Shown here piece after piece: positions 12,330 through 57,358 of a stretch of 59,350 nucleotides of DNA. The stretch is from positions 359-59,708 of the forward strand of contig NZ_BMGG01000014.1 of assembly GCF_014640075.1 (NCBI RefSeq). The letters run 5' to 3'. The translations under genes and the position numbers were made by a program. Under the pieces are notes generated by a model, which did no database searches, was not told where the DNA came from, and saw only the letters and a list, made by a program, of their open reading frames with translations. The DNA comes from Chelatococcus reniformis. Its GTDB lineage: Bacteria > Pseudomonadota > Alphaproteobacteria > Rhizobiales > Beijerinckiaceae. The stretch's first letter is position 1; every line of letters starts with the position of its first letter.

Positions 12330-12420
12330 CCTCGCGATTGGGCGGAAATCACGCCATCGCCAGAGAAGCGGCTCAGATTCAATAGCTTGGATCATTTTTC
12401 CCAATCGGGAAATGCTCTAA
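12330..12420. repeat. Short-type intergenic repeat copy
   Basis: Reverse complement reads TAGAGCATTTCCCGATTGGG and continues with GATCCAAGC..ATTCAA..AGCCGCTTCTC, matching the short-type repeat consensus (TAGAGCATTTC.CGATTGGATG.AATCACC..CGCAGAGAAGCGCTCC..ATTCAAA). The ends form an imperfect inverted repeat around TTTCCC/GGGAAA. Confidence 0.65.
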
Positions 12421-12576
12421 GCACCCTGAATCCGGGCGCCCGCACCGATCGCCAGGTCCATCCGAGGGGTGAGTGATGCCTCGATCGGGGCCGTCGGCAA
12501 CCGCGGGGCGGGTTGTGGCTGAGAAGAAGCTTACGCATGATCGTGGCGCGATGCGGCCACGGGCGACCGGCCGGCG

Positions 12577-13413
12577 TTGCTGCGGCTAGAACCGAAGGGG
12601 AACCGGATTTTGTTGAACCCTGTCGACCGCAGCTTCGGTGTTTCGCTCGCCCTCGCCTCCGAGAACGTCGTTCTCACAAGCGTGAAACCGCGGACGGGCG
12701 CCACCGAGGCTGGTGTCGCACTGCCGGCGCTCGACCTGCCGCTCGATCACGAGAAGGCGAACGAGGCTTCGGCGTGCATCGGGCACCGGGAGATGCTCAT
12801 CGTCGAACGCATCGAGGCCGGGCTTCCGGATCGCAGCTATCACAACGTCAATGACATGATCGCGGCCCATGGCGGCGAGCTGGTGGCGGGATGGATGCTG
12901 GAATACGTTCCAAACGTCCTTATCCGCGCAGCGCGCCACGCCGTCTGGCGGGATCAGGACGGCGTGCTCTTCGACGTCACACCGGTCCGCCGCCCCGCCG
13001 ACCAGACGCGGTCGACCTTCGCCCCGGACGAGGAGACATTGCTCGACTACATCGCGTCCCTGCCGGTCGAGGATCGCTATGTCGTCCTGGCCAGGGATGC
13101 CGACGTGCGCTCGGTGGCCGTCCAGTACAAGCGCAACATCGCAGCCCAGAGAAAGCTCCTGGCGCGAATAGTTGCCGACTTCAGGTACGAGATCCGACCG
13201 GGCGGGGGCTTGCAAGGGCCGTCGCTCCTCGAGAATTATCCGGATCTCAGCCAGGAGGTCGACGACAGTTACTTCAAGATGCACCGCTACCGCCGCCGGG
13301 TGCTCCAGCGTTACTTTCCCGAAGAGGCTGCCGCACTGGCGGCGATGGCGCCTTCGGCACGAGCGCGCAAGCCGGTCCCGACGTCAGGAAGGCCGAGCAC
13401 CGCCGGCAGCTAA
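12577..13413 (+). CDS. Hypothetical protein
   Basis: Up to 278 aa from a TTG at 12577; no ATG occurs before residue 72, and the true start is uncertain. A core at about 95-140 (HGGELVAGWMLEYVPNVLIR, then ARHAVWRDQDGVLFDVTPVR) is typical of a widespread bacterial family of unknown function in which a Trp/His-containing strand pair precedes a GxLxDVTP motif. The C-terminal part is helical and basic (RKLLARIVADFRYEI; HRYRRRVLQRYF). The stop TAA (13411-13413) is the first codon of a repeat element. Confidence 0.6.
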   Translation: MLRLEPKGNRILLNPVDRSFGVSLALASENVVLTSVKPRTGATEAGVALPALDLPLDHEKANEASACIGHREMLIVERIEAGLPDRSYHNVNDMIAAHGGELVAGWMLEYVPNVLIRAARHAVWRDQDGVLFDVTPVRRPADQTRSTFAPDEETLLDYIASLPVEDRYVVLARDADVRSVAVQYKRNIAAQRKLLARIVADFRYEIRPGGGLQGPSLLENYPDLSQEVDDSYFKMHRYRRRVLQRYFPEEAAALAAMAPSARARKPVPTSGRPSTAGS

Positions 13414-13509
13414 AGCGATTTGCGACGGGTGGAATCAGCCGATCGGCTTCGAAAAGCGGGAACATTTTGCTGCGGTCGGATGATGCTCGTCCAATCGCGA
13501 AATGCTCCT
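13411..13509. repeat. Short-type intergenic repeat copy
   Basis: Begins TAAAGCGATTTGCGACGGGT and ends (reverse complement) GGAGCATTTCGCGATTGGAC; the two ends are related inverted copies of the repeat's terminal motif. It supplies the stop codon of the upstream gene. Confidence 0.6.
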
Positions 13510-13541
13510 GGCGGCCGCGTGCCGCTGGCGCACTGGGGGCG

Positions 13542-14136
13542 ATGAGCGACGATGACTGGGGGCGCCTCGCGCCCTTCGTCGACGCCGACGCCGGCCGGAC
13601 GCCGCACTGCAGGTCGGCTTCGTCGGCTGGCTTCAGCGCGAGGCGAGCGCCGACGATCGGCACCGCGTGGCGGAGGGCTGGAACTGGGACCGGGACCGGG
13701 GGTGCTGGAGCGGATTGGGGCGCGGCCGGACTGCGAGCCGGCGACGGCCCTGCTGCTCTTCTGGCGCACCGCACCGGATTTCGACCTCCGCCATCCGCCG
13801 GACGATGCGTCCGCGAACGATGAGGCATGGCAGTTGCAAGAGCTGATCAGAGGCCGCTGGCGGCGCGGCCGCTACCGCCGCGCCGAGCTGTCGTTCGACA
13901 TCGAGGACATTCCGCTCGTGAGTGACAAGGCATCGTACAATGCGGCCGCGCGGGCGCTGGAGGCGACGACGACGGCCGCGGAGCAGTTCGCCGAGCTTGA
14001 GCACCAGCTCGGACCCGACGCCGTCGCCGGGGCCATGCCGCCTTCCATGAGGATCTCGCTGCCGGTCCGGACGCCGGTGGGTGAACGGCTGATCGAGGGC
14101 ATCCCGGCGCGGTTCTGGCCCGCGGCGTTGCAGTGA
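13542..14136 (+). pseudogene. DUF4274-like gene broken by two frameshifts
   Basis: The ATG at 13542 starts MSDDDWGRLAPFVDADA. Around 13595 sense shifts to a second frame (PDAALQVGFVGWLQREASAD, then DRHRVAEGWNWDRD), and at a run of five G near 13700 to a third (GPGVLERIGARPDCEPATAL, LLFWRTAPDFDLRHPPDD) that runs to 14136. The combined NWDxGxxVLExIxxRPDCxxATALxLFW is the DUF4274 signature. Restoring one G at the poly-G run rejoins the second and third frames. Two independent shifts argue for decay over a single sequencing error. Confidence 0.6.
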
Positions 14137-14299
14137 CGGACCGAGCCGATTCGAGCGGAGATCCATCACACAGCAGCGGGAGCCCGGTTGCGCGCCCTCC
14201 CTTGGCGCAAGGCGCCCATTCGCTGAGCGCAGCTGGCGCGACCGCCAGGCCGTGCCATGGTCGTGGACGCTCCGCCCGCATGACGCCGACGAGGTTTCC

Positions 14300-16021
14300 A
14301 TGGCACCCCCCCAGCCGATCGACGAGAATGCCTACCTCGGCGAGCTCCAGGCCCTCTACGCCAAGGCTTGGCCGGCGGGGCTCGACCGCACCATCGCCTA
14401 TACGCACGGCGAAAGGCCCCTCACCGACTATCTGGGAATCTGGGCCCGCACCCGGCCGGACAAGCCGGCGGTCATCTTCTATGGCGCGGTGATGACCTAC
14501 CGCGAGCTTGACGAGCTCAGCGATCGCTTTGCCGCCCTCCTGGCCGGGCACGGCATCGGCAAGGGCGACCGGGTCTCGCTGTACCTGCCCAATTGCCCGC
14601 AATTTCATGTCGCCTTCTTCGGCATCCTCAAGCTGGGCGCCGTCCACTGCCCTGTGAGCCCCCTGTCGAAGGCGTTCGAGCTCGCCTATCAGGTCAAGGA
14701 TTGCGGCTCCCAGGTCATCCTGGCACAGGACCAGCTGATGCCGGTGGTGCGCGAGGTGCTGGTCGAGACGGGCATCCGCAAGATCTTCGTGACCAGCTTC
14801 GCCGATGTCGTCCCGGCCGAGCCGTCGATCCCAGCCCCCGCCGCCGTGCGCGCGCCTGCCATCCCCTGCCCCGACGCCATCGACCTGATGCCGGCATTGG
14901 CCGCCATCGACGACGCGACCTACCCCCCCGGCGCGACGCTCGATGATGTCGCCGCGCTCAACTACACCGGCGGCACCACCGGCCTGCCCAAGGGCTGCGT
15001 CCACACCCAGCGCGACATGATCTACACGGTGGCTGCCAACATGTCGCTGGCGCCGCCACCGGACGATTCCGTCTCGCTGAGCTTCTTTCCCGAGTTCTGG
15101 ATGGCCGGCGAGAACAGCTGCCTCGTCTTTCCCGTCTACAATGGTGCTACGCTGGTGCTGCTGACACGGTGGGACCCCGTCACCGTCATGTCCGCCATCG
15201 AGCACTACCGGGTGACGGCGACGGCGATGCCGGTGGATGGCGCGCTGGAGATCATGGACCATCCACGCTTTCACGAGTTCGACTTGAGCTCGCTCGTCAA
15301 CGTCCGCGTCGTCTCGTTCGTCAAGAAGCTGACCATCGACTACCGGCGCCGCTGGCAGCACATGGTGGGCACGACGCTGGCCGAGTCGGCCTGGGGCATG
15401 ACCGAGACCCAGACCTCCGACACCTTCACCACCGGCATGCAGGACGACGATTTCGACCTGAAGTCGCGGCCGACCTTCGTCGGCCTCCCGGTGCCCGGCA
15501 CCCAATTCAAGATCTGCGATTTCGAGACCGGGGCCATCGTGCCGCTCGGCACCGAAGGCGAGATCTGCTGCCGCTCGCCCTCCCTGCTCAAGAGCTACTG
15601 GAACAAGCCGGAAGCGACGCGGGACGCCTTGCGCGACGGCTGGCTGCACACCGGCGACATCGGCGTGATCGATGCACAGGGCTACCTGTTCTTCCTCGGA
15701 CGCCGCAAGGAGATGATCAAGGTCAAGGGCATGAGCGTGTTCCCGGGCGAGATCGAGGCCATCCTCGGCCAGCATCCGGCGGTGGCGGCGAGCGGCGTCG
15801 TGCCGCGGCCGGACCCGGAGCGCGGACAGGTGCCGGTCGCCTTCGTGCTGCTGAAGCCCGAGCAGACTGCGGGCGCCGAGCCCGGCGCCATGGAGGCCTG
15901 GTGCCGGGAGCGCATGGCGAGCTTCAAGACGCCCGAGGTGCGCTTCGTCGCCGCCCTGCCCATGACGGCGACCGGCAAGGTCAAGAAGAACGAGCTGGGC
16001 GAGCTGCTGAAGCCCGCGTAG
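14300..16021 (+). CDS. AMP-dependent acyl-CoA synthetase/ligase
   Basis: 573 aa ANL-superfamily enzyme that activates a carboxylic acid with ATP and CoA. P-loop-like A3 motif YTGGTTGLPKGC near 222-233, A5 ESAWGMTETQ near 365, A7 GWLHTGDIG near 445, hinge GRRKEMIKVKGMSVFPGEIE near 465, and the C-terminal catalytic Lys in TGKVKKNEL near 560. Substrate specificity is not evident; the sequence resembles medium- or long-chain and aryl acid ligases. Start 14300 chosen by family alignment (MAPPQPIDENAYLGE); the ribosome-binding site is weak (GAGG). Confidence 0.92.
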   Translation: MAPPQPIDENAYLGELQALYAKAWPAGLDRTIAYTHGERPLTDYLGIWARTRPDKPAVIFYGAVMTYRELDELSDRFAALLAGHGIGKGDRVSLYLPNCPQFHVAFFGILKLGAVHCPVSPLSKAFELAYQVKDCGSQVILAQDQLMPVVREVLVETGIRKIFVTSFADVVPAEPSIPAPAAVRAPAIPCPDAIDLMPALAAIDDATYPPGATLDDVAALNYTGGTTGLPKGCVHTQRDMIYTVAANMSLAPPPDDSVSLSFFPEFWMAGENSCLVFPVYNGATLVLLTRWDPVTVMSAIEHYRVTATAMPVDGALEIMDHPRFHEFDLSSLVNVRVVSFVKKLTIDYRRRWQHMVGTTLAESAWGMTETQTSDTFTTGMQDDDFDLKSRPTFVGLPVPGTQFKICDFETGAIVPLGTEGEICCRSPSLLKSYWNKPEATRDALRDGWLHTGDIGVIDAQGYLFFLGRRKEMIKVKGMSVFPGEIEAILGQHPAVAASGVVPRPDPERGQVPVAFVLLKPEQTAGAEPGAMEAWCRERMASFKTPEVRFVAALPMTATGKVKKNELGELLKPA

Positions 16022-16036
16022 CGAAAGGCGTCGCGG

Positions 16037-17590
16037 TCAGGCCGCGAGTGCCGCCCGCCGCGGGCTGACGAGGTGCTCCTTGAGCACCGTATCGGAGCCG
16101 TCGACCTCCCGGAGCAGCACGTCGTAGCTCCACAGATCGGCCAGGTGCTGCAAGACGCGCTTCAGGTCCGTCTCGGCGAGCAGGCCGCCGTTCACCACGG
16201 TGTGGCGCAGAATGAGACGCCGGTCACCGGCGAGATCGACATCGACGATCTCGATGTGCGCGTCGATCCAGCCGACGTCATACTGGCGCGACAGCTGGCG
16301 GCGGATGCGCCGGTAGCCGCGCTCGTCGTGGATCGACCCGATCTTCATGCCCGCCTTGTCCGCGGGGTCGTCATTGAGATGGAACATGCGCATGCGCCGC
16401 ATCAGATGCGGGCTGAGAAACTGGGCGACGAAGCTTTCGTCGCGGTAATTGGCCCACAGGTCGCGCAGCACCGCCATCGCATCGCCCGTGCCGGCGATGT
16501 CGGGAAACCATTCCCGGTCCTCGTCCTGCGGCTGGGTGACGATGCGCTCGATGTCCTGCATCATCGCGAAGCCGAGCGCATAGGGGTTGAGGCCGGAATA
16601 GCGGGGATCGTCGTATCCCGGCTGGAACACGACGTTGGTGTGCGACTTCAGGAACTCCAGAAAATCGCCATCGCCGATGGCGCCCAGCTGGTGCAGGCGG
16701 TTCATGACGCGATAGTGGACATAGGTCGCCGTCCCCTCGTTCATGACCTTGGTCTGCCCCTGCGGGTAGAAGTACTGGGCGACATGCCTGACGATGCGCA
16801 GCAGTTCGCGCTGCCACGGCGCCAGCCGCGGCGCCGCCTTCTCCAGGAAGTAGAGGATGTTCTCCTGGGGCAGGCCGGCCAGGGAGCGGCGGCGCTCCGC
16901 CTCCAGGTCGGGCGTCGCTCGCGCCGCGCCAGCCGGCAGGGTGCGCCAGAGATCGTTGAAGATGCGCTCGTTGTGCGCCTGGCGATCGCGTTCGCGCCGC
17001 TCCTCCTGGCGCAGGTCGAGCTTCTTCTTGCCGGCATAGCGGTGGACGCCGTGCGACATCAGCGCATGCGCCGCATCGAGGGTGCGCTCCACCGCGGCCG
17101 GCCCATAGCGCTCCTCGCAGCGGGCCACGTAGTTCTTGGCGAAGTCCAGATAGTCGAGGATGCCCTCGGCGTCGGTCCACAGCTTGAACAGATAGTTGTT
17201 CTTGAAGAAGTGGTTATGTCCGAACGCGGCATGTGCGATGACGAGCGTGTGCATGGTCGCCGTGTTCTCCTCCATGAGGTAGGAGATGCAGGGCGAGCTG
17301 TTGATGACGATCTCGTAGGCGAGCCCCATCAGGCCCTTGCGGTAGAAGGCCTGCTGGTGGGCGAAATGCTTGCCGAACGACCAGTGCTTGTAGAACAGCG
17401 GCATGCCGATCGAGGAATACGCGTCGAGCATCTGCTCGGCCGTGATCACCTCGATCTGATTGGGATAGATGTCGAGCCCGAGCTCGGACACGCCCACCGT
17501 GTGGCAGGCATCGTAGACGCGCTGCAAGGTGGCGAAGTCCCAATCGGCCCCCTGGAAAAGCCGCTCCATGCTCGTGACGGCCATGCTCAC
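16037..17590 (-). CDS. SpoVR family protein
   Basis: 517 aa, last gene of the prkA-yeaH-spoVR operon. Characteristic SpoVR segments: ELGLDIYPNQIEVITAEQML, YKHWSFGKHFAHQQAFYRKG, GLAYEIVINSSPCISYLMEE, AHAAFGHNHFFKNNYLF, and QTKVMNEGTATYVHYRVMNR. In B. subtilis SpoVR acts in spore cortex formation, but in non-sporulating proteobacteria the gene is always found with prkA and yeaH and its activity is unknown. The invariant His/Glu clusters suggest a metal site. Separated from yeaH by 17 bp. Confidence 0.95.
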   Translation of the reverse strand: MSMAVTSMERLFQGADWDFATLQRVYDACHTVGVSELGLDIYPNQIEVITAEQMLDAYSSIGMPLFYKHWSFGKHFAHQQAFYRKGLMGLAYEIVINSSPCISYLMEENTATMHTLVIAHAAFGHNHFFKNNYLFKLWTDAEGILDYLDFAKNYVARCEERYGPAAVERTLDAAHALMSHGVHRYAGKKKLDLRQEERRERDRQAHNERIFNDLWRTLPAGAARATPDLEAERRRSLAGLPQENILYFLEKAAPRLAPWQRELLRIVRHVAQYFYPQGQTKVMNEGTATYVHYRVMNRLHQLGAIGDGDFLEFLKSHTNVVFQPGYDDPRYSGLNPYALGFAMMQDIERIVTQPQDEDREWFPDIAGTGDAMAVLRDLWANYRDESFVAQFLSPHLMRRMRMFHLNDDPADKAGMKIGSIHDERGYRRIRRQLSRQYDVGWIDAHIEIVDVDLAGDRRLILRHTVVNGGLLAETDLKRVLQHLADLWSYDVLLREVDGSDTVLKEHLVSPRRAALAA

Positions 17591-17607
17591 AGCCCCCTCA
17601 GAACCGA

Positions 17608-18864: not shown

Positions 18865-18885
18865 TCCCGCTCTCTTGGTTACCGC

Positions 18886-22206: not shown

Positions 22207-22800
22207 ATGCCGGCCCTGACCCAGCGGCGCATCGCGCTTCCGCTCGCCTGTTTCGTGCTCGGCCTCGTCATGCTGGGCGGCCTACTCGCCTACGTGATGA
22301 CGCAAAGCCCCTCGTCTGCCGGCGGCGGCGTCGGCGGTCCCTTCACCCTCACCGATCAGAACGGCGATGCTGTGAGCGACGCGAGCCTGCGCGGCGAGCC
22401 GTTCCTGGTCTTCTTCGGTTTCACCCACTGCCCCGACGTCTGCCCGACCACGCTCTTTGACGCCTCCGAGATGCTGCGCGCGCTCGGTCCGTCGGCCAAG
22501 GCCAAGGTCCTCTTCGTCTCGGTCGATCCGCAGCGGGACACGCCGGAGGTCCTGAAAAGCTACCTCGGCAGCTTCGATCCGCGCATCGTCGGGCTGACCG
22601 GCTCCCAGGAGGCGGTCGACGCCATGGCCAAGGCCTATCGGGTCTATGCCCGCAAGGTGCCGCTGAAGGATGGCGATTACACCATGGATCATACCGCCTT
22701 GGTGTATCTCATGGATCGGACGGGTCGTTTCGTCGGCGGCTTCGATCTCAAGCGCGCGCCGGCGGCCGCGGCCGCGGAGTACCAGCGCTACCTCTCGTGA
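22207..22800 (+). CDS. SCO1/SenC family copper chaperone
   Basis: 197 aa. One N-terminal anchor helix (LPLACFVLGLVMLGGLLAYV), then a thioredoxin-like domain exposed to the periplasm with copper-binding CPDVC (C75/C79) and the distal His in TMDHTALVYLMD near 165. SCO proteins deliver copper to the CuA site of cytochrome c oxidase or act as thiol reductants. GGAGG lies about ten bases before the ATG at 22207. No oxidase genes are adjacent. Confidence 0.93.
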   Translation: MPALTQRRIALPLACFVLGLVMLGGLLAYVMTQSPSSAGGGVGGPFTLTDQNGDAVSDASLRGEPFLVFFGFTHCPDVCPTTLFDASEMLRALGPSAKAKVLFVSVDPQRDTPEVLKSYLGSFDPRIVGLTGSQEAVDAMAKAYRVYARKVPLKDGDYTMDHTALVYLMDRTGRFVGGFDLKRAPAAAAAEYQRYLS

Positions 22801-22989
22801 GTGCCGGCGGGCTTTGCGCAAAGCGCCTCAGACTCGAAGGGATTTGGGCATTCCGCCAGTGGACGCACCCATCGAACGGCGAAAGGCTCTCGCCCATGAC
22901 GCCGCCGGGATAACGGCGTATTGCTTTCCGGGCTCGGAGCGAACTTGCCTCCGGCCGCTGTCCCGCAGCCGCCCTTGCACAGGCAACGG

Positions 22990-26230: not shown

Positions 26231-26233
26231 TTA

Positions 26234-26335
26234 GAGCATTTCCGCGTTTCCTCGAATCGCCGAAATGCTCTATCTATTTGCTTTGTCGCGTTTTCTTCAC
26301 GCGAACCGGCGTCCACTTCGCTCGAAAACGCTCTA
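26234..26335. repeat. Long-type intergenic repeat, copy 1
   Basis: 102 bp from GAGCATTTCCGCGTTTCC to CTCGAAAACGCTCTA, with conserved centre CTATCTATTTG..TTGTCGCGTTTTCTTC and CGTCCACTTCGCTCGAAA. Closely matches copies at 28910-29011 and 53679-53779 (inverted). Confidence 0.85.
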
Positions 26336-26337
26336 AA

Positions 26338-26412
26338 GCATTGCGCAGCTGGATGAGCATCATCCAATTGCAGAGAATACCTCACCATCATTTGAATCTG
26401 GAGTGCTCAGTG
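26338..26412. repeat. Short-type intergenic repeat copy
   Basis: GCATTGCGCAGCTGGATGAG, CATCCAATTGCAGAGAAT, ATTTGAATCTGGAGTGCTC: matches the short-type consensus and abuts long-type copy 1. Confidence 0.6.
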
Positions 26413-27090
26413 GCGCGCCCAGATGATGCGCGCCATCCACGCGATATCGCCCAGGGGTACGACGTGGACCGGCCGCGCGGGGTCGATCGGGCGCAATTCA
26501 ACGGCGTGCGCCGTGCGTCCCGCCAACTCGCGCGCCGTCACCTCGCCGGCCCGCGTGCGCACCACCACACGGTCGCCCTTGCGCACCCGCGCGCCGGGCG
26601 ACACGACGATGATGTCGCCGTCGCGATAGAGTGGCAGCAGCGCCGGGCCCGACACCTTGAGCCCCAGCAGCCGCCCGGCCGACAGGCCCGGGAAGCTGAC
26701 CTCGCCGTCGGCGGGCGCGGGACCGCCATGGAACGCGTCGGCGGTCGCTGAATGGGCAAGGTCCACCACGGGAACACTGGCCGGCCGGGGGCGCAGCGTC
26801 GCACGTCGCTTTGCTCCCCGCGTCTCGCCCGTGGCGGCCGCAGGTGAGCCGCCCGGATCGCGCCCGGCAACGAGCGCCACGAACTCATCCAGGCTGGCAC
26901 CGGTCGCCTCGAGCACCTTGGCGATCGACTCCGTCGACGGCCAGCGCAGACGGCCGTCGGCTGCCGCCCGCTTCGACCGATTGAACGTGGTCGGATCCAA
27001 CCCCGAGCGCCGCGCCAGCCCCGATGGCGACAGGCCGTAGCGCGTCGCCAGCATATCGAGCGCCCGCCAGATCTGGTCGTGCGACAGCAT
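26407..27090 (-). CDS. HTH-S24-like repressor lacking the catalytic dyad
   Basis: 227 aa. N-terminal helix-turn-helix (RYGLSPSGLARRSGLDPTTF, NRSKRAAADGRLRWPSTESI) and a C-terminal LexA/CI-like S24 fold. Where active relatives have SGDSM, this protein reads VSGPALLPLYRDGDIIVVSP (no Ser or Asp), and where the catalytic Lys sits it reads GEVTARELAG (Arg). It therefore probably cannot self-cleave, and may be a constitutive or ligand-controlled regulator. ATG 27090 is preceded by an AT-rich promoter-like region (CCTAGGATTTATTACC). Confidence 0.85.
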   Translation of the reverse strand: MLSHDQIWRALDMLATRYGLSPSGLARRSGLDPTTFNRSKRAAADGRLRWPSTESIAKVLEATGASLDEFVALVAGRDPGGSPAAATGETRGAKRRATLRPRPASVPVVDLAHSATADAFHGGPAPADGEVSFPGLSAGRLLGLKVSGPALLPLYRDGDIIVVSPGARVRKGDRVVVRTRAGEVTARELAGRTAHAVELRPIDPARPVHVVPLGDIAWMARIIWARH

Positions 27091-28863: not shown

Positions 28864-28909
28864 TCGGCGGCCACCCCTGGGGCGCCTCGCGATTGGGTGG
28901 ATTCACCTA

Positions 28910-29011
28910 GCGCATTTCCGCGTTTCTTCAAAGCGCCGAAACGATCTATCTATTTGATTTGTCGCGTTTTCTTCCCGCGAACCGGCGTCCACTTCGCTCG
29001 AAAGCGCTCTA
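28910..29011. repeat. Long-type intergenic repeat, copy 2
   Basis: 102 bp, same orientation as copy 1 and about 90% similar by eye. Preceded by part of a short-type element (CTCGCGATTGGGTGGATTCACC, 28886-28907) and followed by another partial one (AAGCGCTCCAGGTTCAAAGG and GGAGCATTTCCCGATC, to 29058). It fills the gap between convergent argE and hslO. Confidence 0.85.
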
Positions 29012-29095
29012 GTCTAAGCGCTCCAGGTTCAAAGGCGCGGAGCATTTCCCGATCAAGCGGAGCCGCCGGATCGGCAAACCGCATTCGCGATCATC

Positions 29096-31131: not shown

Positions 31132-32360
31132 CAGGCTGCTCCCCGCCTCTCGCCCCGCAGGTCGGCTTCGAGCCGCCCCGCTGCTGCTGCGATCCGTTCG
31201 ATGCCCTCGGCCACCTCGGCTTCCCCGATGATGAGCGGAGGCAGCAGGCGAACCGTGTTTTCACCTGCGCCGATCAGCAGCAGATGCTGCGCCTGCGCGG
31301 CAGCGATGAAGTCGGTGTTGGGAACGTTCATCTTCAGCCCGAGCATGAGGCCTTCGCCGCGCACCTCGACGATGAGCGAGGGGAAGCGGTCCTTGATCTC
31401 GGCGAGACGCTGCTTCAACAGCAGGCCCATGGCGCGCACATGCTCCAGGAAACCGGGCGCCAGGACGACGTCAAGCACGGCGTTGCCGACCGCCATGGCA
31501 AGCGGGTTGCCGCCAAAGGTGGTACCGTGCACGCTGGCCGTCATGCCCTTGCCCGCCGCCTCGGTGGACAGGCAGGCGCCGAGCGGAAAGCCGCCGCCGA
31601 TGCCCTTGGCGATGCCCATGATATCCGGCGTGACGCCCGTCCATTCGTGGGCGAAGAGCTTGCCGGTGCGGCCGACGCCGGTCTGCACCTCGTCGAAGAT
31701 GAGCAACAGCCCGTGCTCGTCGCACAGCGCCCGCAGCGCCCGCAGCTTGGCCGGCTCGACGACGCGAACGCCACCCTCGCCCTGGATCGGCTCGATCAGG
31801 ATAGCGGCGGTCTCCGGCCCGATCGCGGCCCTGAGCGCCTCGTCGTCACCGAGCTCGACCTGATCGAAGCCGTCGACTTTGGGGCCGAAGCCCTCCAGAT
31901 ATTTGGCTTGGCCGCCCGCGGCGATCGTGGCCAGCGTACGGCCGTGGAACGCGCCCTCGAAGGTGATGACGCGGTAGCGCCCGGGCTCGCCGTTTGCGGA
32001 ATGGTATTTACGCGCCATCTTGATGGCGCACTCCAGCGCCTCGGCGCCCGAATTGGTGAAGAACACGCGATCGGCAAAGGTGGCGTCGACCAGCCGTTGT
32101 GCCAGCCGCTCGCCTTCGGGAATCCGGTAGAGGTTGGATGTGTGCCAGACCTTGGCCGCCTGCGTGGTGAGCGCTTCTACCAGGTGCGGGTGGGCATGGC
32201 CGAGCGAGTTCACCGCGACGCCGGCCCCGAAATCGAGATATCGCTCGCCGTCACGGGTGACGAGCCACAGGCCCTCTCCCCGGTCGAATTGCAGATCGGC
32301 GCGCGCAAAGGTCGGCAGAAGCGGCGAGGTCACGGGTCGGATCTCCTCATGCGGGATCAC
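31131..32360 (-). CDS. argD: Acetylornithine aminotransferase
   Basis: 409 aa class III PLP aminotransferase. GDGERYLDF-type start region, [51 protein letters not shown], and the PLP Lys in [16 protein letters not shown] near 257. Converts N-acetylglutamate semialdehyde to N-acetylornithine. First gene of the operon; its upstream region faces gcrA divergently. Confidence 0.96.
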
Positions 32361-32683
32361 TTCGGTTCAATCGACGGGTGTCCACAAGTACCCGTCCGCA
32401 TGTCGAAGCCGCGGTCCGCAACTGGGGCAATGCCGTCCGGATCCGGCGCAATGCTCCAGCTCATCGAAACAGGAGCCCCGCGTTCCGCCGGCGTGGTCCC
32501 ACGCAAACGGCCAGTTGCTCCGCAGCGGCGTGAATTCGGACGGCCTCGCGGCCAGCGAAATCCCCAAAAACCAAGTGCCGCCCAGCGGGGGCGGCACTAT
32601 GCCTATTCTAGGGATGAGGCTCCGACTGTCAATTCAAAGCGTACATTTGGTGCCTTGCGTCGCTTTTGCAACGCGCCTCGACT

Positions 32684-32692
32684 TTATGCACA
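32684..32692 (+). promoter_or_regulatory. DnaA box upstream of gcrA
   Basis: TTATGCACA matches the DnaA-box consensus TTATNCACA exactly. In Caulobacter DnaA directly activates gcrA; the site lies about 280 bp before the gcrA start here. Confidence 0.55.
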
Positions 32693-32761
32693 GGTTCGCA
32701 GGAGTGCGATTTCGATCGCTGCTGCGATTGCAGCATCTGCGGCGCAAAACGGCCGCACTTG

Positions 32762-32940
32762 GACTCGGTTTTGTCACCTTCCTGGGGAAAACATCCGCCG
32801 CACCGGGGCCGGTCTTGGCGCAGACTCGCGTCATCTTGTATGGTCCTGCGTGTAAGCCACGACATATCGTGGGTTAACCGGTCATTGGTGATGGTCCTGC
32901 TGCGCTGCGACGAGGAGCGTGCGCAATCGCGGAGGGATTC
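32762..32940. promoter_or_regulatory. GANTC cluster and TTAACC half-site upstream of gcrA
   Basis: Three CcrM methylation sites: GACTC at 32762-32766 and 32823-32827, GATTC at 32936-32940. A CtrA half-site TTAACC lies at 32874-32879. GcrA acts at methylated GANTC promoters in Caulobacter, and CtrA represses gcrA, so this resembles an autoregulatory cell-cycle switch. Confidence 0.5.
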
Positions 32941-33498: not shown

Positions 33499-33793
33499 CG
33501 CGCTCCCCCTTCGGACGGCGCTCGATCGCGTCGACGTGCCAGGGAGGCCTTTGTGCAGCGGCGGCCCCCATTCTGCCGCGCGCGGCGGGCCATGCCGACG
33601 CGGGCCGGCCTGGCCCTCAAGGCTGAGCTGGCGCATGTGCTCGCAAGAGATCGGATGATTCACCCGGTCGGATAGAAATGCACCAACCGCGGCCTTTGGG
33701 GTGCTTCTTGCCGACCGGGCGGTTCCGCCGACGGCGGCGCAGGCAGGCCCGATGCGGTCCCTACGTCGCGCCGGACGACTGTTCCGGCTTCGC
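33499..33793. other. Gap between gcrA and phoB, no gene; partial short repeat
   Basis: No credible ORF. Positions 33655-33690 (GATCGGATGATTCACCCGGT, AGAAATGCACC) resemble half of the short-type repeat, lying between two convergent transcription units. Confidence 0.45.
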
Positions 33794-43826: not shown

Positions 43827-43909
43827 CGCCGACGGACATCGGGGCCCGGATCGGCGAAACGGGAGGGTCTCCCCTCGGGTATTTCCCGATCAGATCGAAA
43901 CACCTGATC

Positions 43910-43988
43910 GCTAGGAATGCTCCAAGTCTTTGAATTTGGATCGCTTCTCCCCGATCGGGTGATTCCACCCGTTCAAGAAATGCTCTAG
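43910..43988. repeat. Short-type intergenic repeat copy
   Basis: Reverse complement TAGAGCATTTCTTGAACGGG, GGAATCACCCGATCGGGGAG, GATCCAAATTCAAAGACTTG, GAGCATTCC. It provides the TAG stop (43985-43987) of the minus-strand hydrolase. Confidence 0.75.
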
Positions 43989-46786: not shown

Positions 46787-46787
46787 T

Positions 46788-48551: not shown

Positions 48552-48582
48552 CGCGCGCCTCCGAGCTCTGCTCGCTTACCTA

Positions 48583-48643
48583 GTGCATTTCGCAATTGAA
48601 TGAGATCACCCAATGCACAGAGATGCTCCAGGTCTTCGAAGCG
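48583..48643. repeat. Short-type intergenic repeat copy
   Basis: TAGTGCATTTCGCAATTGAA, GAGATCACCCAATGCACAG, GATGCTCCAGGTCTTCGAAG. Nearly the same as the inverted copy at 57296-57358. Confidence 0.7.
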
Positions 48644-48781
48644 GCGGGGCCGGACAAGGCCGCCACGCCTGCGTGGGCTTGTCGCCCAGGGCCGTTTCTG
48701 CCATAAGCGCGGCTTCGTTCGAACCGCCCGGCTTAAAGGGCTGCCGTGGCCGTTCGTCTCGCTCATGAAAATCATGGGTTC

Positions 48782-48823: not shown

Positions 48824-49024
48824 ATGCCCAAACTCAAGACCAAGTCAGGCGCCAAGAAGCGCTTCAAGATCACTGGAACAGGGAAGGTGCTGGCGGCCCA
48901 GGCCGGCAAGCGCCACGGCATGATCAAGCGGACCAACAAGCAGATCCGCAATCAGCGCGGCACGGGTGTGCTGTTCGACGGCGACGCGAAGAACGTCAAG
49001 AAGTTCTTCCTGCCCAACGGTTGA
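48824..49024 (+). CDS. rpmI: 50S ribosomal protein L35
   Basis: 66 aa, highly basic: [60 protein letters not shown]. Full family length. TGAGGAGAG ribosome-binding site. First gene of rpmI-rplT, 35 bp before rplT. Confidence 0.97.
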
Positions 49025-49059
49025 TCGTCCCAGTTCCCCGACATTCCAGGAGATAGACT

Positions 49060-49428: not shown

Positions 49429-49444
49429 CACGCCTGACCGCGTC

Positions 49445-49543
49445 CCGATCGGATGGGATCGTCCGATCGGCGACGAGCGTCCCCTCTTCAGCCAATCCGG
49501 GCATGCCGTCCGGCGGAGGCACCATCCGGCCGGATGGTGCCTC
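49445..49543. terminator. Hairpin pair after rplT
   Basis: First: CCGATCGGA/TCCGATCGG (49445-49453 and 49462-49470), eight-base loop. Second: a perfect 28-bp loopless palindrome, arm GAGGCACCATCCGG (49516-49529) with its complement to 49543. Neither has a T tract. The pair may terminate rpmI-rplT or moderate read-through into pheST; no phenylalanine-rich leader peptide is visible, so attenuation is not supported. Confidence 0.5.
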
Positions 49544-49696
49544 AGGGCGTCGGAGGGGGCCGCGGGGTGCACCCGGGCGGCGGCATGAGGCCGTTGCCTT
49601 CCGGCGCGCATATCCGCACCGGCAAAGCCTTCCAGCCGCGCCGCGTTCATGCGGCAGCCGGCGCTCGCGATGTCAACCGGAGCCGTCGAGGCACCC

Positions 49697-50779: not shown

Positions 50780-50795
50780 TCATGGCAGAGACACG

Positions 50796-53216: not shown

Positions 53217-53300
53217 GATTGGCGCTTCTCTTTGCGCTATAGGCCGGGCGCCCGATGTGCCGGCGAGCCATCGGCGGGCGTTCGAAGGAGACCTCGCACC

Positions 53301-53681
53301 GTGAAGGCCGCTCTCGTCCTTGCTCTCCTGGTCGTACCCGCCGCGGCGTGGGCGCAGGCGCCGCTGCGGACGATCGACGATTGCGAGCGCTTCGAGGAGC
53401 CTCTCGCCTACAATGCGTGCCTGGCCAAGTTCGGCCCCGAGCGGGGCGCCGGCCCGCAGACGACGTCGGAGGTGTCGGACGACAAGGATGACGGTCGCGG
53501 CAGGGAACGCAAGAGTGCCGCGCTCGGCAGCGGCGGCGGCCAGGAAGCGAAGGCAAGGCCGTGGCGGACGTCGCGGAGCCGCAACGGCCGCGTGTCCGCG
53601 AGCTTCGATGTCTCGCCCTACTTCTCCGGCAAGTCGTCGCGGCGGCACTACGGCAAGCGCTCCTATGGACGCCGCCATTAG
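53301..53681 (+). CDS. Small secreted basic protein
   Basis: 126 aa from a GTG preceded by AAGGAG. Signal peptide KAALVLALLVVPAAAWAQAP (cleavage after AQA), a conserved-looking DDCERFEEPLAYNACLAKFG segment with two Cys (a likely disulfide), then a charged, disordered Gly/Arg/Lys-rich tail (RGRERKSAALGSGGGQEAKA; SGKSSRRHYGKRSYGRRH). Periplasmic, function unknown. Stop TAG (53679-53681) is the first triplet of long-type repeat copy 3. Confidence 0.7.
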   Translation: MKAALVLALLVVPAAAWAQAPLRTIDDCERFEEPLAYNACLAKFGPERGAGPQTTSEVSDDKDDGRGRERKSAALGSGGGQEAKARPWRTSRSRNGRVSASFDVSPYFSGKSSRRHYGKRSYGRRH

Positions 53682-53779
53682 AGCATTTCGAGCGGAGTGG
53701 ACGCGGGTTCGCGTGAATAAAATGAGACAAAACAAATAGATAGTGCATTTCCGCGATTCGGAGAAACGCAGAATTGCTC
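53679..53779. repeat. Long-type intergenic repeat, copy 3 (inverted)
   Basis: 101 bp; its reverse complement aligns over its whole length with copies 1 and 2 (CTATCTATTTG, ATTCACGCGAACC, GCGTCCACTCCGCTCGAAAT). A short-type element follows at 53795-53866 (GCGATTGGATAGAACCACCC, GCAGAGAAGCGCTTCGGATT). Confidence 0.85.
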
Positions 53780-53873
53780 AAGTGGGCTCTGCGATTGGAT
53801 AGAACCACCCGATTGCAGAGAAGCGCTTCGGATTCAAAAACCTGGCGCATCTCCATCCGGTCGGATGGGCCTC

Positions 53874-54665
53874 TCAGCCCGCAGCGTTCGACACGGCGGC
53901 AATCCCGGACAGGGGATTGTCCGGGTCCCAGGCGTAGCGCAGCGTCTCGAACCGCATCGAACGGGCGTCCACCATCAGCAGCCGGCCGACCAGACCCTCG
54001 CCGAAGCCCACGACCTCCCGCACCACCTCGATCGCCATCAGCGATCCCATCAGGCCGGCCAGCGCGCCGAGCACCCCGGCTTCGGCGCAGGTGGGGATGG
54101 CACCGGCCGGCGGGGGCGCCGGAAACAGGCAGCGGTAGCTGGGATTGGGCTCGCCTTCGGCATTGCGCTCATGGGCGCGGATCGTGGTGAGCGTGCCGTC
54201 GAACATGCCGAGCGCCGCGGTGACCAGCGGCTTCGCCTCGTGGTAGCAGGCGTCAGACACGGCGTAGCGCGTGGCGAAATTGTCGGAGCCGTCGGCGACC
54301 ACATCGAAGCTGCGGACCAACTGGCGGGCATTGGCCGAATCGAGTCGCGCCTGCATGGCGTCCACGTGCACGTGCGGATTGAGGCGGCGCACCGCCTCGA
54401 CAGTCACCTCGACCTTGGAGCGACCTACGTCCTCGGTGGCGAACAACACCTGCCGCTGCAGGTTGGACAACGACACATGGTCGTCGTCGATGAGCCCGAT
54501 ATGTCCAACGCCGGCGGCGGCAAGGTATTGGACGAGGGGCGCTCCCAGGCCGCCGGCGCCCACCACGAGCACCCGTGCCTGCTTCAGGCGCGTCTGTCCC
54601 GGGCCGCCGATGTCGTGCAGCACGAGGTGGCGTGCATAGCGTTCGACCTCTTGGTCGTCGAGCAT
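53874..54665 (-). CDS. MoeB/ThiF/HesA family adenylyltransferase
   Basis: 263 aa E1-like enzyme that adenylates a ubiquitin-like sulfur carrier (MoaD or ThiS) for molybdopterin or thiamine synthesis. ATP motif VLVVGAGGLGAPLVQYLAAA near 32-51, LSNLQRQVLF, KVEVTVEAVRRLNPHV, DGSDNFATRYAVSDAC, and catalytic-loop PTCAEAGVLG. The first zinc CxxC of MoeB is altered (PSYRC) and the second is missing near the C-terminus, so the zinc site is probably lost. No rhodanese domain. AAAGGTGG precedes the ATG. Divergent from the BMP gene. Confidence 0.9.
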   Translation of the reverse strand: MLDDQEVERYARHLVLHDIGGPGQTRLKQARVLVVGAGGLGAPLVQYLAAAGVGHIGLIDDDHVSLSNLQRQVLFATEDVGRSKVEVTVEAVRRLNPHVHVDAMQARLDSANARQLVRSFDVVADGSDNFATRYAVSDACYHEAKPLVTAALGMFDGTLTTIRAHERNAEGEPNPSYRCLFPAPPPAGAIPTCAEAGVLGALAGLMGSLMAIEVVREVVGFGEGLVGRLLMVDARSMRFETLRYAWDPDNPLSGIAAVSNAAG

Positions 54666-54814
54666 GGGTCCACCTTTCCGTCGCCGCGTCGGGCGAACGC
54701 GCAATTGTCGGTGCGCGACGACCGTGGTCGGCTGGCGATTCCGTGCCGGGTCGAGGTATGCAACCTTGCCAGCCGATCCGCCACCGTCCGAGAGCTTCCA
54801 GATAAGGTTCGTGG

Positions 54815-55873
54815 ATGCATCACGCCAAGACTTCATCGCTCCACCGCGCACGCCGGCCCGGCGCCCCGCCCCGGGTCGCCCTCCGGCTATGGGCGGCCTG
54901 CGCGCTGGCGCTCGCGGCAGCCCTGCCGGGCTCAGCCCTCGCCCAGCAGCCCGGCCCGGCGCTGGTGCTGGACGAGAGCGATCCGATTGCGGCCGGGTTC
55001 GCGGCTTCGGCCCGTGCCGGAGCCGCGCGGTTCCAGAGCGAAGGGGGAGCCGCCGTTGACATCCAGATCGCCACGGCCGCGCAATCGGAGCAGGTGCTCC
55101 GACGCGCGGCGGATCAGGGCCGCTTTCCCATCATCGCGGTCGGCCGCAGTCAGGCCGGCGCCGTCGACAAGGTGGCCAAGACCTATCCCAACCTGCGCTT
55201 CACCATCGTCGACGGCATCGTCGGCCTGGCAAACGTGCGCTCCATCGTCTTTCGCCGCGAGGAGAGCGCCTATCTCGCCGGCTTCCTCAGCGCTCGCGTA
55301 TCGGCCGCCGGGCGGATCGGCTTCATAGGAGGCGTCGACGACGCGGAGACCCGGCAGGTGCTGTGCGGCTTCGCGCAGGGCGCGCGCGCCGCCAAGCCCA
55401 ACGTCGAGCTGTTCCAGAACATGATCGGCGCACCAGGCGAGGCCGCTGCCAACCGCTCGGCCGGCACCGACCTCACCCGCGGCCAACTGGATCGCGGGGC
55501 CGACGTGGTGATGGAAGCGGCGCGCCTCAACGGAGTTGGCGTCCTGCGGACGGTCGCGGATGCTGGGCGCCTGGCCGTCGCCTCGGACATCGACCAGAAC
55601 GCCCTCTTTCCCAGCACGATGCTGGCGTCGGCGGTCAAGCGGGTCGACACGGCCGTGCTGGCGACGCTCATCGCCGGCCGCGACGGGACGTGGCAGCCGG
55701 GCATGGTCACGTTGGGACTCAAGGAAGACGGCGTCAGCCTCGCGCTCAACCCGGCGCTGCAGCCGCCGCTGGCCCCCGACATCACCCAGGCGCTCGACCA
55801 ACGGCGCGCCGCGATTGCCGACGGCAGCCTCGTGGTGCACGATTTCGTTACCGACCAGAAGTGCCAGATGTAG
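54815..55873 (+). CDS. BMP/PnrA family periplasmic binding protein
   Basis: 352 aa. Signal peptide with a hydrophobic core LWAACALALAAALPGSALAQ (no lipobox Cys), then a Bmp (PF02608) domain: FPIIAVGRSQAGAVDKVAKT, YPNLRFTIVDGIVG, VRSIVFRREESAYLAGFLSA, AGRIGFIGGVDDAETRQVLC, ASDIDQNALFPSTMLASAVK. Relatives bind purine nucleosides or other ligands for ABC transporters. No transporter genes are adjacent. Confidence 0.9.
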   Translation: MHHAKTSSLHRARRPGAPPRVALRLWAACALALAAALPGSALAQQPGPALVLDESDPIAAGFAASARAGAARFQSEGGAAVDIQIATAAQSEQVLRRAADQGRFPIIAVGRSQAGAVDKVAKTYPNLRFTIVDGIVGLANVRSIVFRREESAYLAGFLSARVSAAGRIGFIGGVDDAETRQVLCGFAQGARAAKPNVELFQNMIGAPGEAAANRSAGTDLTRGQLDRGADVVMEAARLNGVGVLRTVADAGRLAVASDIDQNALFPSTMLASAVKRVDTAVLATLIAGRDGTWQPGMVTLGLKEDGVSLALNPALQPPLAPDITQALDQRRAAIADGSLVVHDFVTDQKCQM

Positions 55874-55905
55874 CGCCCGGCGGACCTCTCCGCCCGGACT
55901 GGCCT

Positions 55906-56766
55906 TCAGGCCATCGCCTTCAGGTGAGTGATGCCGCCGCCGCCCGAAGCCTCGATGCGGCGAACCGCGTCGTCGAGCGGCTCGATCTCGACCATCATGT
56001 GAAAGCCGTTGGCGTGGATCAGCCGCTCGGCATCGAGCATCATGCCGACGTGCCCCTTCCAGAACACCAGGTCGCCACGCACCAGGCCTGCGCGTTCGCC
56101 GGTAGCCTCGAGCGGACGTCCCAGGGAGGCGGCCTGCAGATCGCTGTCGCGCGGGCACGTGCGGCCGGCACTGCTCAGGCAGAGCTGCACGAGCGCCGAG
56201 CAATCCAGGCCCGACGAGGTGCGGCCGCCCCATAGGTAAGGCGTGCCGCGCAGGTGCTCTGCCACCGCCGCATAGTCGCCGACGACGGCATCGAGCGGCC
56301 GCAGGTGAGCGGCAAAGACAAAGCCGCCCTCCGCGGACAGATAGGGACCGCCGGCCGCGGGTTCGGACACATGGATGCGGGCGGCGAGTGGCAGCGCCCC
56401 GAGGGGCGGCCTCTTCATGTCCGGCGCGGGGTAGACGAAGGTGCGGGGCGCCTGGACCGCATGCGTTGGCCACGCGGCGCGCGCCGTCAGGTCGTCAGCG
56501 GGCAGGTAGCCCACGTAGCCGTCGGTGAGGAGCTGACCCCAGGCCCAGCCCTCGTCGTCGATCTCGAACACGTCGACGTCCTCACCATGGAGCGCCTCGG
56601 TGTCCAGCGCCGCATCGCGGCGCGGGGCGCGGCGGACCGGTGCGCAATAGGAAGCGACGCGCATGGGGCGCGGCTCGACGAAGCGGTCGGCCTCGACGAG
56701 ACCGCGCAGACGCGCCGCAGCGAGGTCCGGCCGCGCCGGCAGCAGGCGCCGCTCGATCGTACTCAT
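55906..56766 (-). CDS. NlpC/P60 family cell-wall hydrolase
   Basis: 286 aa. N-terminal bacterial SH3-like region (VASYCAPVRRAPRRDAALDT, EALHGEDVDVFEIDDEGWAW, GQLLTDGYVGYLPADDL) followed by an NlpC/P60 peptidase: YLWGGRTSSGLDCSALVQLC with the catalytic Cys, GRTCPRDSDLQA, and the His in FWKGHVGMMLDAERLIHANG. Cleaves peptide stems of peptidoglycan or similar gamma-D-Glu bonds. No signal peptide is visible, as in the widespread cytoplasmic-looking alphaproteobacterial form. ATGA overlap with the MarR gene. Confidence 0.92.
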   Translation of the reverse strand: MSTIERRLLPARPDLAAARLRGLVEADRFVEPRPMRVASYCAPVRRAPRRDAALDTEALHGEDVDVFEIDDEGWAWGQLLTDGYVGYLPADDLTARAAWPTHAVQAPRTFVYPAPDMKRPPLGALPLAARIHVSEPAAGGPYLSAEGGFVFAAHLRPLDAVVGDYAAVAEHLRGTPYLWGGRTSSGLDCSALVQLCLSSAGRTCPRDSDLQAASLGRPLEATGERAGLVRGDLVFWKGHVGMMLDAERLIHANGFHMMVEIEPLDDAVRRIEASGGGGITHLKAMA

Positions 56767-57110
56767 CGCACTTCTTTCGCCTTGGCCACCACCATGTCCG
56801 CCAGATGCTCGACGGCCAGCGCTCCCTTGACCGTTCGTTGGACAATGACGTTGCGGCGGTCGACCTCGTCCCGGCGGCGGGACAGCAGCTGCAACTTGCC
56901 CATGGTGTCGAGGGCACGGGTGACGACCGGCTTGGTGACGCCGAGCTTGCTCGCCAGGCCCCTGACGGTGTGAGGCGGCGTATCGAGATAGATGGTGAGC
57001 AGGATCGTCATCTGCCGGGCGGACAGATCATAGTCCCCGCCCCGGACAAGGCTGAGCATGACGTCGTGCCAGAGGGTCAGCGCCTCGCGGGGCCTGAGTT
57101 CAATGCTCAT
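56763..57110 (-). CDS. MarR-family transcriptional regulator
   Basis: 115 aa, short for the family. Winged helix with LSARQMTILLTIYLDTPPHT, VRGLASKLGVTKPVVTRALD, TMGKLQLLSRRRDEVDRRNV (the D-R-R-N wing) and a C-terminal helix. It likely regulates its own neighbourhood or a ligand-responsive target. Stop and next start overlap (ATGA), coupling it to the NlpC/P60 gene. Confidence 0.88.
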   Translation of the reverse strand: MSIELRPREALTLWHDVMLSLVRGGDYDLSARQMTILLTIYLDTPPHTVRGLASKLGVTKPVVTRALDTMGKLQLLSRRRDEVDRRNVIVQRTVKGALAVEHLADMVVAKAKEVR

Positions 57111-57295
57111 ACGACAATCGACAGCGACATTCGGGTATCGCCCTGGACAACCGGCAGTGGCATGCAGCCATTGTCGACGCGCAGGCGTGCGCCCGCAAGT
57201 GCAGGCGCGCAGCAGCCTGCGTTTTTGTTCCGGCAGCGGATGAATGGCCCCTCGAACGCTCCGCGATCGGGCAGCGTCACGAGAGGCGCTCCTGA

Positions 57296-57358
57296 TGCGA
57301 CGAGCTGGCGCACCTCTGTGCAAGTGAATGATCTCATCCAATTGCGAAATGCCCTGGC
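57296..57358. repeat. Short-type intergenic repeat copy (inverted)
   Basis: Reverse complement GGGCATTTCGCAATTGGATG, AGATCATTCACTTGCACAG, GGTGCGCCAG; nearly collinear with 48583-48643. It lies between the aminopeptidase and MarR genes. Confidence 0.7.

Follow-up and report, generated by a model that had tools for sequence, protein, structure and literature searches.

Two intergenic repeat families of Chelatococcus reniformis as probable MITEs of an IS630 group with TAGAGC ends

The Rhizobium-specific intergenic mosaic elements (RIME) were reportedly described by Osteras in 1995, and Bru-RS1 and Bru-RS2 are said to go back to Halling and Bricker in 1994. The Bru-RS repeats are palindromic and measure 103 and 106 bp, according to PMC10800456. 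The CIR, the CcrM-associated intergenic repeats of Caulobacter, were reported by Chen and Shapiro in 2003, as told in the review PMC2229807; by that description they resemble the repeats studied here, for they measure about 110 bp, end in TA, consist of two palindromic arms joined by a linker, carry GANTC at the loop of an arm and are mostly intergenic. The IS630 of Shigella sonnei prefers a TA within 5'-CTAG-3', judging from the title of Tenzen and Ohtsubo (1991) as cited in PMC2170065.

Here we analyse the repeats of a 59,350-nucleotide stretch of Chelatococcus reniformis DNA (the window), together with their copies elsewhere in the genome and in related genomes. We conclude that both of its repeat families are very probably MITEs of an IS630 group with TAGAGC ends, with CTAG as target, an end made of two blocks and, for the long family above all, stop codons as harbour.

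The repeat families and their copies in the window

The two families of intergenic repeats predicted from the window are real, and whole-genome model searches show that they are more abundant than was predicted, in excess over chance. Model R1 (long family) finds at least 150 distinct places, all full-length, the weakest among the matches listed scoring 109.4 bits, and model R2 (short family) finds at least 141 (one listing of R2 rows counts both strands). The sizes had to be revised: the "100-bp" type is a 104-bp unit, the TA at both ends included, and the "60–95-bp" type is a unit of about 114 bp that likewise has two arms. The coordinates originally predicted for the short copies cover pieces of this unit or degenerate copies. 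The kinship proposed from the termini is borne out, since both families follow a common plan, a TA-GAGC end, two palindromic arms, a linker and a GCTC-TA end; two arms and a linker in about 110 bp are true of both. TA is preserved at both termini in 36 of 49 long copies and in 7 of 17 short ones. Neither unit contains a transposase gene, and three of the six reading frames are free of stops in the long consensus, two in the short one. Among the 47 long copies of alignment A1, which were drawn from the best matches, 36 share 97% or more of their bases with the consensus. A search of the window against Rfam at the gathering threshold matched a single tRNA and no RNA family corresponding to the repeats.

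The figures given below for flanks, GANTC and stop codons come from a recount of 49 long and 17 short copies in which overlap by a shared TA was allowed. The tests of gene overlap, 3' bias and free CTAG sites rest on a first set of 47 long (48 under a looser rule) and 16 short copies, from which copies overlapping a neighbour by a shared TA are missing. Young copies are over-represented, because the copies were drawn from the best matches among the R1 and R2 places.

In the window, R1 recovers the three predicted long copies, at 26232..26335 (+ strand, 104 bp from TA to TA in the sequence, 132.6 bits), 28908..29011 (+, 115.9 bits) and 53679..53781 (−, 93.2 bits). The seven predicted short copies are all recovered by R2. 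The best preserved, which begins at CTAG, lies at 43875..43987 (−, 104.5 bits), followed in score by 53780..53891 (+, 66.8 bits); the copy at 26334..26446 (−, 44.1 bits) has its TA in common with the 3' TA of the long copy at 26232..26335, and four are degenerate, at 12323..12419 (+, 54.0 bits), 57252..57356 (+, 53.7 bits), 13411..13509 (−, 50.1 bits) and 48581..48672 (−, 37.8 bits). The three predicted partial copies are also recovered, weakly. One is a remnant at 33649..33742 (−, 26.1 bits), and the two others are the 5' (about 28878–28907; R2 match 28878–28948, 17.4 bits, E 0.024) and 3' (29000..29086, +, 29.2 bits) remnants of one short copy split by the long copy at 28908..29011. This long copy is apparently nested in an older short copy, as short-family sequence flanks it on both sides (by eye, and from weak R2 matches), and the empty site would read CCTAGTC. 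Some of these matches arise by construction, since window copies contributed three of the 47 rows of A1 (R1) and three of the 27 rows of A2 (R2; 43875, 13411 and 12330); the other short copies of the window took no part in building R2. R2 also finds two short-family-like copies absent from the original prediction, at 49434..49544 (+, 34.6 bits) and 22795..22891 (+, 30.5 bits), and a weak match at 32423..32522 (−, 27.0 bits), inside the called gene 31284–32855, which may be due to chance.

Target site, element ends and the source of the transposase

The repeats had been proposed to be non-autonomous mobile elements, and this is upheld by TA duplication at CTAG, by the ends of IS630 elements in relatives and by neighbours that share a TA. 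The duplication is observed in two natural comparisons of filled and empty sites, both of which concern long-family relatives in other genera (Bradyrhizobium and Rhizobium). In Bradyrhizobium, a filled B. barranii plasmid was compared with two records in which CTAG is intact, the flanks being 99.8–99.9% identical; the junction of a third record (L154) is slightly different. In Rhizobium, two filled records were compared with four empty ones; CTAG stands in three of the latter (TP42, OyaliB and TP60, which has an extra G) and CTAA in the fourth, and the filled flank shows C where the CTAG-type empty records show G. A Sinorhizobium empty site was rejected, its flanks being too diverged for a base-precise comparison, and so was the comparison of K102 with R. 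lentis, whose junction is not clean and in which the stop codon alone is comparable. Long-family-like elements occur in Rhizobium and Sinorhizobium plasmids, and the short family gives no match in plasmids at E 0.01. Two S. meliloti stretches carry no annotated features.

The C and G flanks are seen in most elements. The base before the element is C in 41 of the 49 full long copies and in all 17 short ones; after it, 30 of the long copies have G and 12 have A, and 14 of the short have G. The same bases precede (C, 12/18) and follow (G, 17/18) 18 elements of other genomes, taken from 24 loci (L122–L145) by leaving aside two from the own genome (L122, L134), three truncated ones (L124, L132, L141) and one whose match was short (L142). 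Among 291 elements, nine of the 16 pairs of neighbours at most 400 bp apart overlap by exactly 2 bp, with one TA in common, where random placement would give about five pairs this close and 0.012 exact overlaps. In the window, the short copy at 53780..53891 and the long copy at 53679–53781 also overlap by 2 bp, which now read AA, the TA being lost.

It could be imagined that the repeats are REP-like and moved by a RAYT/IS200-type single-strand transposase, as their opposed palindromic arms resemble paired REPs. IS200-type single-strand transposition is not known to yield a target duplication, and this origin is contradicted at both polymorphic sites, where TA is duplicated; the ends and the GANTC register moreover match IS630, and we consider this origin highly improbable.

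The match with IS630, on which our attribution to MITEs of this group relies in part, is seen in elements that code for a transposase. Ends of the TAGAG/CTCTA type were found in 15 of 30 IS630 loci of the window's taxonomic family, as compared to 2 of 65 control loci of the own genome, and again in 12 of 29 new IS630 loci that belong to other families in the same order. GANTC occupies end positions 23–27 in all 15 TAGAG-ended IS630 of the family (15/30 ends); at other shifts, it occurs nowhere from −12 to −1 and from +1 to +5, and six times in total from +6 to +12. At the level of the order, GANTC has this position in 11 of 12 elements (11/24 ends), one of the 12 (L246) having a doubtful end pair but being counted as found, and is seen off-register once in total over 16 shifts, from −8 to +8. 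In the long family of repeats, GANTC has this register in 46 of 49 left ends and in none of the 49 right ends. In the short family it does so in 9 of 17 right and 4 of 17 left ends, and among the 18 elements of other genomes in 10. In the long copy at 26232..26335, for example, GAATC at 26254–26258 corresponds to end positions 23–27. Past TAGAGC, single IS ends resemble the MITE ends weakly (p < 0.05 in 7 of 30, combined p 2e-6). The transposase tree, calculated without the fragment L071, does not support the TAGAG-ended IS630 as one clade: these ends are hardly clustered, with 9 changes against a mean of 11.0 after shuffling.

GANTC sits at the loops of the arms, on the long left arm and on both short arms, and the genome encodes a CcrM-like methylase that bears a RAMA domain. 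Together with the CIR literature (PMC2229807), these observations would suit repeats whose GANTC is kept for regulation by CcrM, their mobility being incidental. We find this rather unlikely, as transposase-coding IS630 bear GANTC at the same distance from their ends, for which a role in the transposon end suffices; the two roles are not exclusive. The position of GANTC is common to the IS630 of relatives and the repeats, so that the site which marks the related CIR repeats may be part of a transposase end.

The search for a partner in the own assembly, a draft of 39 contigs, found no TAGAG-ended IS630. Three loci match PF13358: the best end pair starts CTAGTGTCC in one, another has no end pair, and the third is a fragment that lies at the edge of a contig. 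The two testable transposases form a separate clade, and the ends of the own IS630s do not match the repeats, so these elements were rejected as their source. A search with the TAGAG-type transposase domain gave no match in this assembly either. An autonomous partner in the same genome, which is usual though not required for an IS630-type MITE, was thus not found. The identity of the copies makes it plausible that the repeats are active in this lineage, but the idea is weakened by the failure to find a matching transposase in the assembly and by the fact that the polymorphic insertions are in other genera.

In the mechanism that we propose for these IS630 MITEs, the transposase would recognize an end of two blocks, TAGAGC (positions 1–6) and nnGAATCR (about 21–28), excise the element and paste it into the TA of CTAG, which would duplicate the TA. 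Each palindromic arm may be an IS630 end that turns back on itself around the GANTC block. We infer that a TAGAGC-type IS630 transposase binds these blocks and moves the repeats, a larger related element probably supplying the enzyme. Given that the assembly yielded no matching transposase, this enzyme would act in trans, from a transient IS630.

Placement at gene ends and on stop codons

The repeats were predicted never to lie within clear coding regions. This is mostly true, the mean overlap with genes being 7.5% (93 elements, 65 loci, genes called by a home-made hexamer script), except that four of the 93 elements, all of the short family, are inside a called gene; the host gene of one (L041) seems to be a spurious ORF on the antisense strand. 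Placement at gene ends holds for the long family, which favours convergent and 3' positions; its 3' bias is not shared by the short one: in tandem spaces, 21 of 25 long copies are nearer the upstream stop, compared to 4 of 17 in the short family.

In many long copies, the overlap with a gene consists of exactly three bases, its stop codon. A called gene terminates exactly on the TAG of the element in 29 of 49 copies of the long family and in 4 of 17 of the short one; in the window this is so for the gene 53301–53681 (no Pfam match) and the long copy at 53679..53781. The far TA is intact in 20 of the 29 long cases, where it is followed by G in 16 and by A in four, which makes the old codon TAG or TAA; in the other nine, the base that follows is G in five and T in four. 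The binomial p value for this placement, computed with 28 of 47 long copies, is 5e-10, and the comparison with free CTAG uses 54 sites (of 86 outside elements, 22 located in genes and 10 located at edges being set aside). As the gene calls come from a home-made script, Pfam and annotated plasmid records served to check the stop-codon count. The proteins that end on the TAG of an element contain Pfam domains in 10 of 10 tested, out of 28 long stop-codon cases in the first set. In annotated Rhizobium plasmids, a CDS has a length of 198 bp and an identical C-terminus in two filled records and in three empty ones; some annotated records were selected for having a CDS in contact with the match, and they are no fair sample. 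The protein is unchanged by an insertion on the stop codon, as the first letters of the element itself restore TAG. A C-TAG stop codon contains the target, and the G that follows the duplicated TA lets either end rebuild TAG. Insertions into genes and divergent promoter spaces were probably lost.

That long copies prefer convergent and 3' positions would also be expected of fixed, immobile RNA elements of 3' ends (stabilizers of mRNA or terminators) kept for their function. The two arms can indeed pair: in A2, 12 of 20 pairs are changed on both sides and 90.1% of the cells pair, a value that none of 500 shuffles reaches, the structure being derived from the same alignment. Such covariation can equally be produced by palindromic DNA ends, the elements are present or absent between close strains with clean empty sites, and neighbours share a TA. 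The placement on stop codons follows from the choice of target, and we regard fixed RNA elements as very unlikely. Insertion at CTAG stop codons, followed by the loss of harmful insertions, accounts for the 3' placement of the long copies, which is explained more simply in this way than by the transcript processing that had been considered.

Comparison with known repeats

The attribution to IS630 offers a mechanism of movement for alphaproteobacterial repeats whose mechanism a 2007 review (PMC2229807) left open, and a simple possible reason for the conservation of GANTC in repeats; it also shows a route by which a transposon can occupy a stop codon, the protein being unaltered. In the open-access literature, as far as its accessible text goes, we found no link of RIME or CIR to IS630, or of GANTC to IS630 ends, which is no proof of absence. 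As a tentative extension, a large class of alphaproteobacterial repeats with GANTC (CIR- or RIME-like) might be IS630 MITEs in which the inner block bound by the transposase is at the same time the CcrM site; the methylation state over the cell cycle would then time transposition, and the CTAG/TAG chemistry would make stop codons safe harbours.

The RUP of Streptococcus pneumoniae is similar to the present repeats in its size (107 bp), its TA target and its ends in common with an IS630 element, according to PMC2229807. The repeats described here differ from RUP in that their partner is not found in the genome, and by their two separate arms, preference for CTAG, inner GANTC block and placement on stop codons. 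RIME and Bru-RS are, like them, repeated and intergenic, a likeness that goes by description (PMC10800456). The likeness to the IS630 of Shigella sonnei is that of the target; that element encodes a transposase, unlike the repeats. As for CIR, PMC2229807 gives multiple stops in all six frames (an unpublished finding of its author), whereas the repeats studied here have open frames, and it describes the target duplication as unknown and the mobility as open, while for the present repeats and their relatives the target, the duplication and the IS630 source of the ends are shown.

Copies, anatomy and spread of the two families

The best account of these repeats is that they are MITEs of a group of IS630 elements with TAGAGC/GANTC ends. 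The ten full copies listed in the window by the original prediction are all recovered with the models of the long family (R1, built from 47 rows) and of the short family (R2, built from 27 rows, degenerate copies among them), and its partial copies reappear as weak matches. The genome that holds the window is a draft of 6.81 Mb in 39 contigs. When it was searched with the long repeat, the best 40 of 283 candidates were all full-length and 95–100% identical; a recount in the stretches around search matches yields 49 full and distinct copies of the long family and 17 full ones of the short, the sample for our counts of flanks, GANTC and stop codons. Over the whole genome, R1 finds at least 150 places and R2 at least 141 distinct places. 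The mean column identity is 96% in the alignment of 47 long copies.

From TA to TA, the long unit measures 104 bp and the short unit 114 bp, and both have the same plan: (C)TAGAGC, first arm, linker, second arm, GCTCTA(G). RNAalifold folds each unit into two arms; both sides have changed in 12/20 pairs of the short family, and 90.1% of its cells pair, a value which none of 500 shuffles reaches. The elements of other genomes matched by R1 or R2 retain this plan. By eye, two of them (L136 and L137) combine a short-type first arm with a second arm resembling that of rhizobial elements, and in these and L140 arms have apparently been exchanged between repeat families across genera; the elements look like mosaics, and it may be that they evolve as mosaics of end-arm modules.

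R1 matches (E 1e-6 or better) occur in 17 of 240 genomes of the class and R2 matches in 13 of 60 genomes of the family, the own genome being counted in both cases; the R2 rows are mostly from the own genome (at least 62) and from one other genome of the family, G053 (34 rows, both strands counted). Long-family matches are also present in 60 plasmid records, mainly from Rhizobium (39). As for the host, the HSP33 protein of the window is 68–72% identical to proteins of Camelimonas, Chelatococcus and several Methylobacterium, among the 50 matches listed.

Target site and duplication of TA

The base on the 5' side of the unit is C in 41/49 long and 17/17 short copies; that on the 3' side is G in 30 and A in 12 of the 49 long copies, and G in 14/17 short copies. 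In 329.6 kb of own-genome loci, picked around elements, CTAG is found 86 times free and 99 times at elements, against 986 expected from base composition. In these loci CTAG is thus depleted about five- to elevenfold, with or without the element sites, and the elements account for about half of the sites observed.

A set of 291 elements (150 long and 141 short) contains 16 pairs of neighbours less than 400 bp apart (about 5 expected at random), and nine of these overlap by exactly 2 bp, TA, against 0.012 expected. Two more such overlaps lie in the window, at 26334–26335 and at 53780–53781, where TA has changed to AA.

Natural filled and empty sites are found in relatives. A B. barranii plasmid is filled by a 105-bp element related to the long family (79% identity), and two Bradyrhizobium plasmids with flanks 99.8–99.9% identical are empty, with CTAG intact at the insertion point; these are two of the four records with a two-piece signature among the matches listed. 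In a third Bradyrhizobium record (L154), CTAG lies three bases further along. The R. leguminosarum complex offers for comparison two filled records and four empty ones, the latter having CTAG (three records, with an extra G in TP60) or CTAA (one); the filled site minus the empty site equals the element plus a second TA. Among the matches listed, this Rhizobium region has 40 rows: half of them (20) match in a single piece, and the other 20 are split into two pieces that fall about 102 bp short. In the flank, C of the filled records stands opposite G of the CTAG-type empty ones, which calls for a subsequent change or another starting allele there. The element of S. meliloti pSymA is likewise absent from some Sinorhizobium relatives (L147/L157 vs L155/L156), at a junction too diverged for base-level reading.

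Placement at gene ends and rebuilt stop codons

Compared with expectations taken from element-free intergenic length, 49 placed long copies are in tandem (25, 25.9 expected), convergent (23, 6.0 expected) and divergent spaces (1, 17.0 expected; p 2e-14), and 38 placed short copies number 17, 14 and 7 (20.1, 4.7 and 13.2 expected; p 2e-5). In tandem spaces, 21/25 long and 4/17 short copies are closer to the upstream stop.

The element's own TAG is the exact end of a called gene for 29/49 long and 4/17 short copies. As controls, CTAG ends 8/216 other called genes, and stop codons make up 10/54 of the free CTAG sites that are non-genic or stops (p 5e-10 for 28/47 long copies). An in-frame TAG cannot arise by insertion into an intragenic CTAG, since CTAG in that frame is already a stop. 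In 20 of the 29 stop-codon long copies the far TA is intact and followed by G (16) or A (4), which makes the former codon TAG or TAA; in the remaining nine the next base is G (5) or T (4). Pfam domains were found in 10/10 tested proteins ending on an element's TAG.

Annotated relatives can be read in the same way. On Rhizobium plasmids, two filled records and three empty ones annotate the same 198-bp CDS with the ending HSLIS-stop. In TP60, another empty record, this CDS is given 207 bp and a longer C-terminus, since the TAG there is not in frame. A FadR-family CDS of R. lentis ends on the element's TAG; the related CDS of strain K102 ends on TAA. Among loci partly picked because a CDS touched the match, the annotated CDS ends 3 bp inside the match in L165, L166 and L167, and at its far end in L146 and L164; L148 and L151 have no annotated CDS ending at the match.

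IS630 ends and comparison with known systems

The IS630 transposase domain DDE_3 has a match in 68 of 149 genomes of the family. A blind TA-anchored inverted-repeat search of 30 fetched IS630 loci turned up ends starting with TAGAGC, and in a defined test 15/30 of these loci have TAGAG/CTCTA ends, against 2/65 own-genome control loci, which contain MITEs themselves. The 30 ends of these 15 elements, aligned on TA, have a second conserved block: G23 (27/30), T26 (23/30), C27 (29/30) and a purine at 28 (29/30). GANTC stands at 23–27 in at least one end of 15/15 elements (15/30 ends), with no occurrence at registers shifted by −12 to −1 or by +1 to +5, and six in total at +6 to +12. The result was replicated in 29 further loci, taken from other families of the order: TAGAG ends are present in 12, of which 11 have GANTC at 23–27, and the 16 shifted registers together give one match.

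At the same register, GANTC is present in 46/49 left and 0/49 right ends of the long family, in 9/17 right and 4/17 left ends of the short family, and in 10/18 elements of other genomes. Outside the two blocks, the likeness of IS ends to repeat ends is weak (p <0.05 for 7/30 ends).

Of the three DDE_3 matches in the own genome, none was found to have TAGAG ends: the best end pair of the first starts with CTAGTGTCC, the second shows no such pair, and the third, at a contig edge, is a fragment. The two testable proteins form a separate clade (100/99), and a search of the draft assembly with the TAGAG-type transposase domain found nothing. Thus, the MITEs are either dormant or mobilised by an IS630, be it a visiting one or a copy lost in the gaps of the draft.

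The own genome also encodes a CcrM-like methylase (RAMA domain in a 440-aa open frame; 390-aa ORF), whose presence would make methylation of the element ends possible. The ends within a single IS are unlike (L092–L121, L225–L253), GANTC being in exactly half of the ends of the family set, one per element; they may perhaps be methylated differently. The ccrM-like gene itself (L254, contig C3, ORF 646–1818) has a TAA stop that coincides exactly with the end of a degenerate short-family element (1816–1933), beyond which lies a convergent gene whose product, read from sequence, resembles a MutY-type glycosylase.

According to PMC2170065, ISY100, of the IS630 family, inserts almost exclusively into TA, which it duplicates in vitro; a paper title cited there states that Shigella IS630 prefers CTAG. 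The CcrM-associated intergenic repeats (CIR) of Caulobacter, as described in the review PMC2229807, agree with our repeats in their length, their arms and linker, the GANTC loop and the terminal TA; whether CIR are mobile is a question that the review leaves open. A combination of these observations, in which GANTC belongs to the transposase end and stop codons are rebuilt, may be new; our literature search, outside of which the original papers fall, found nothing comparable.
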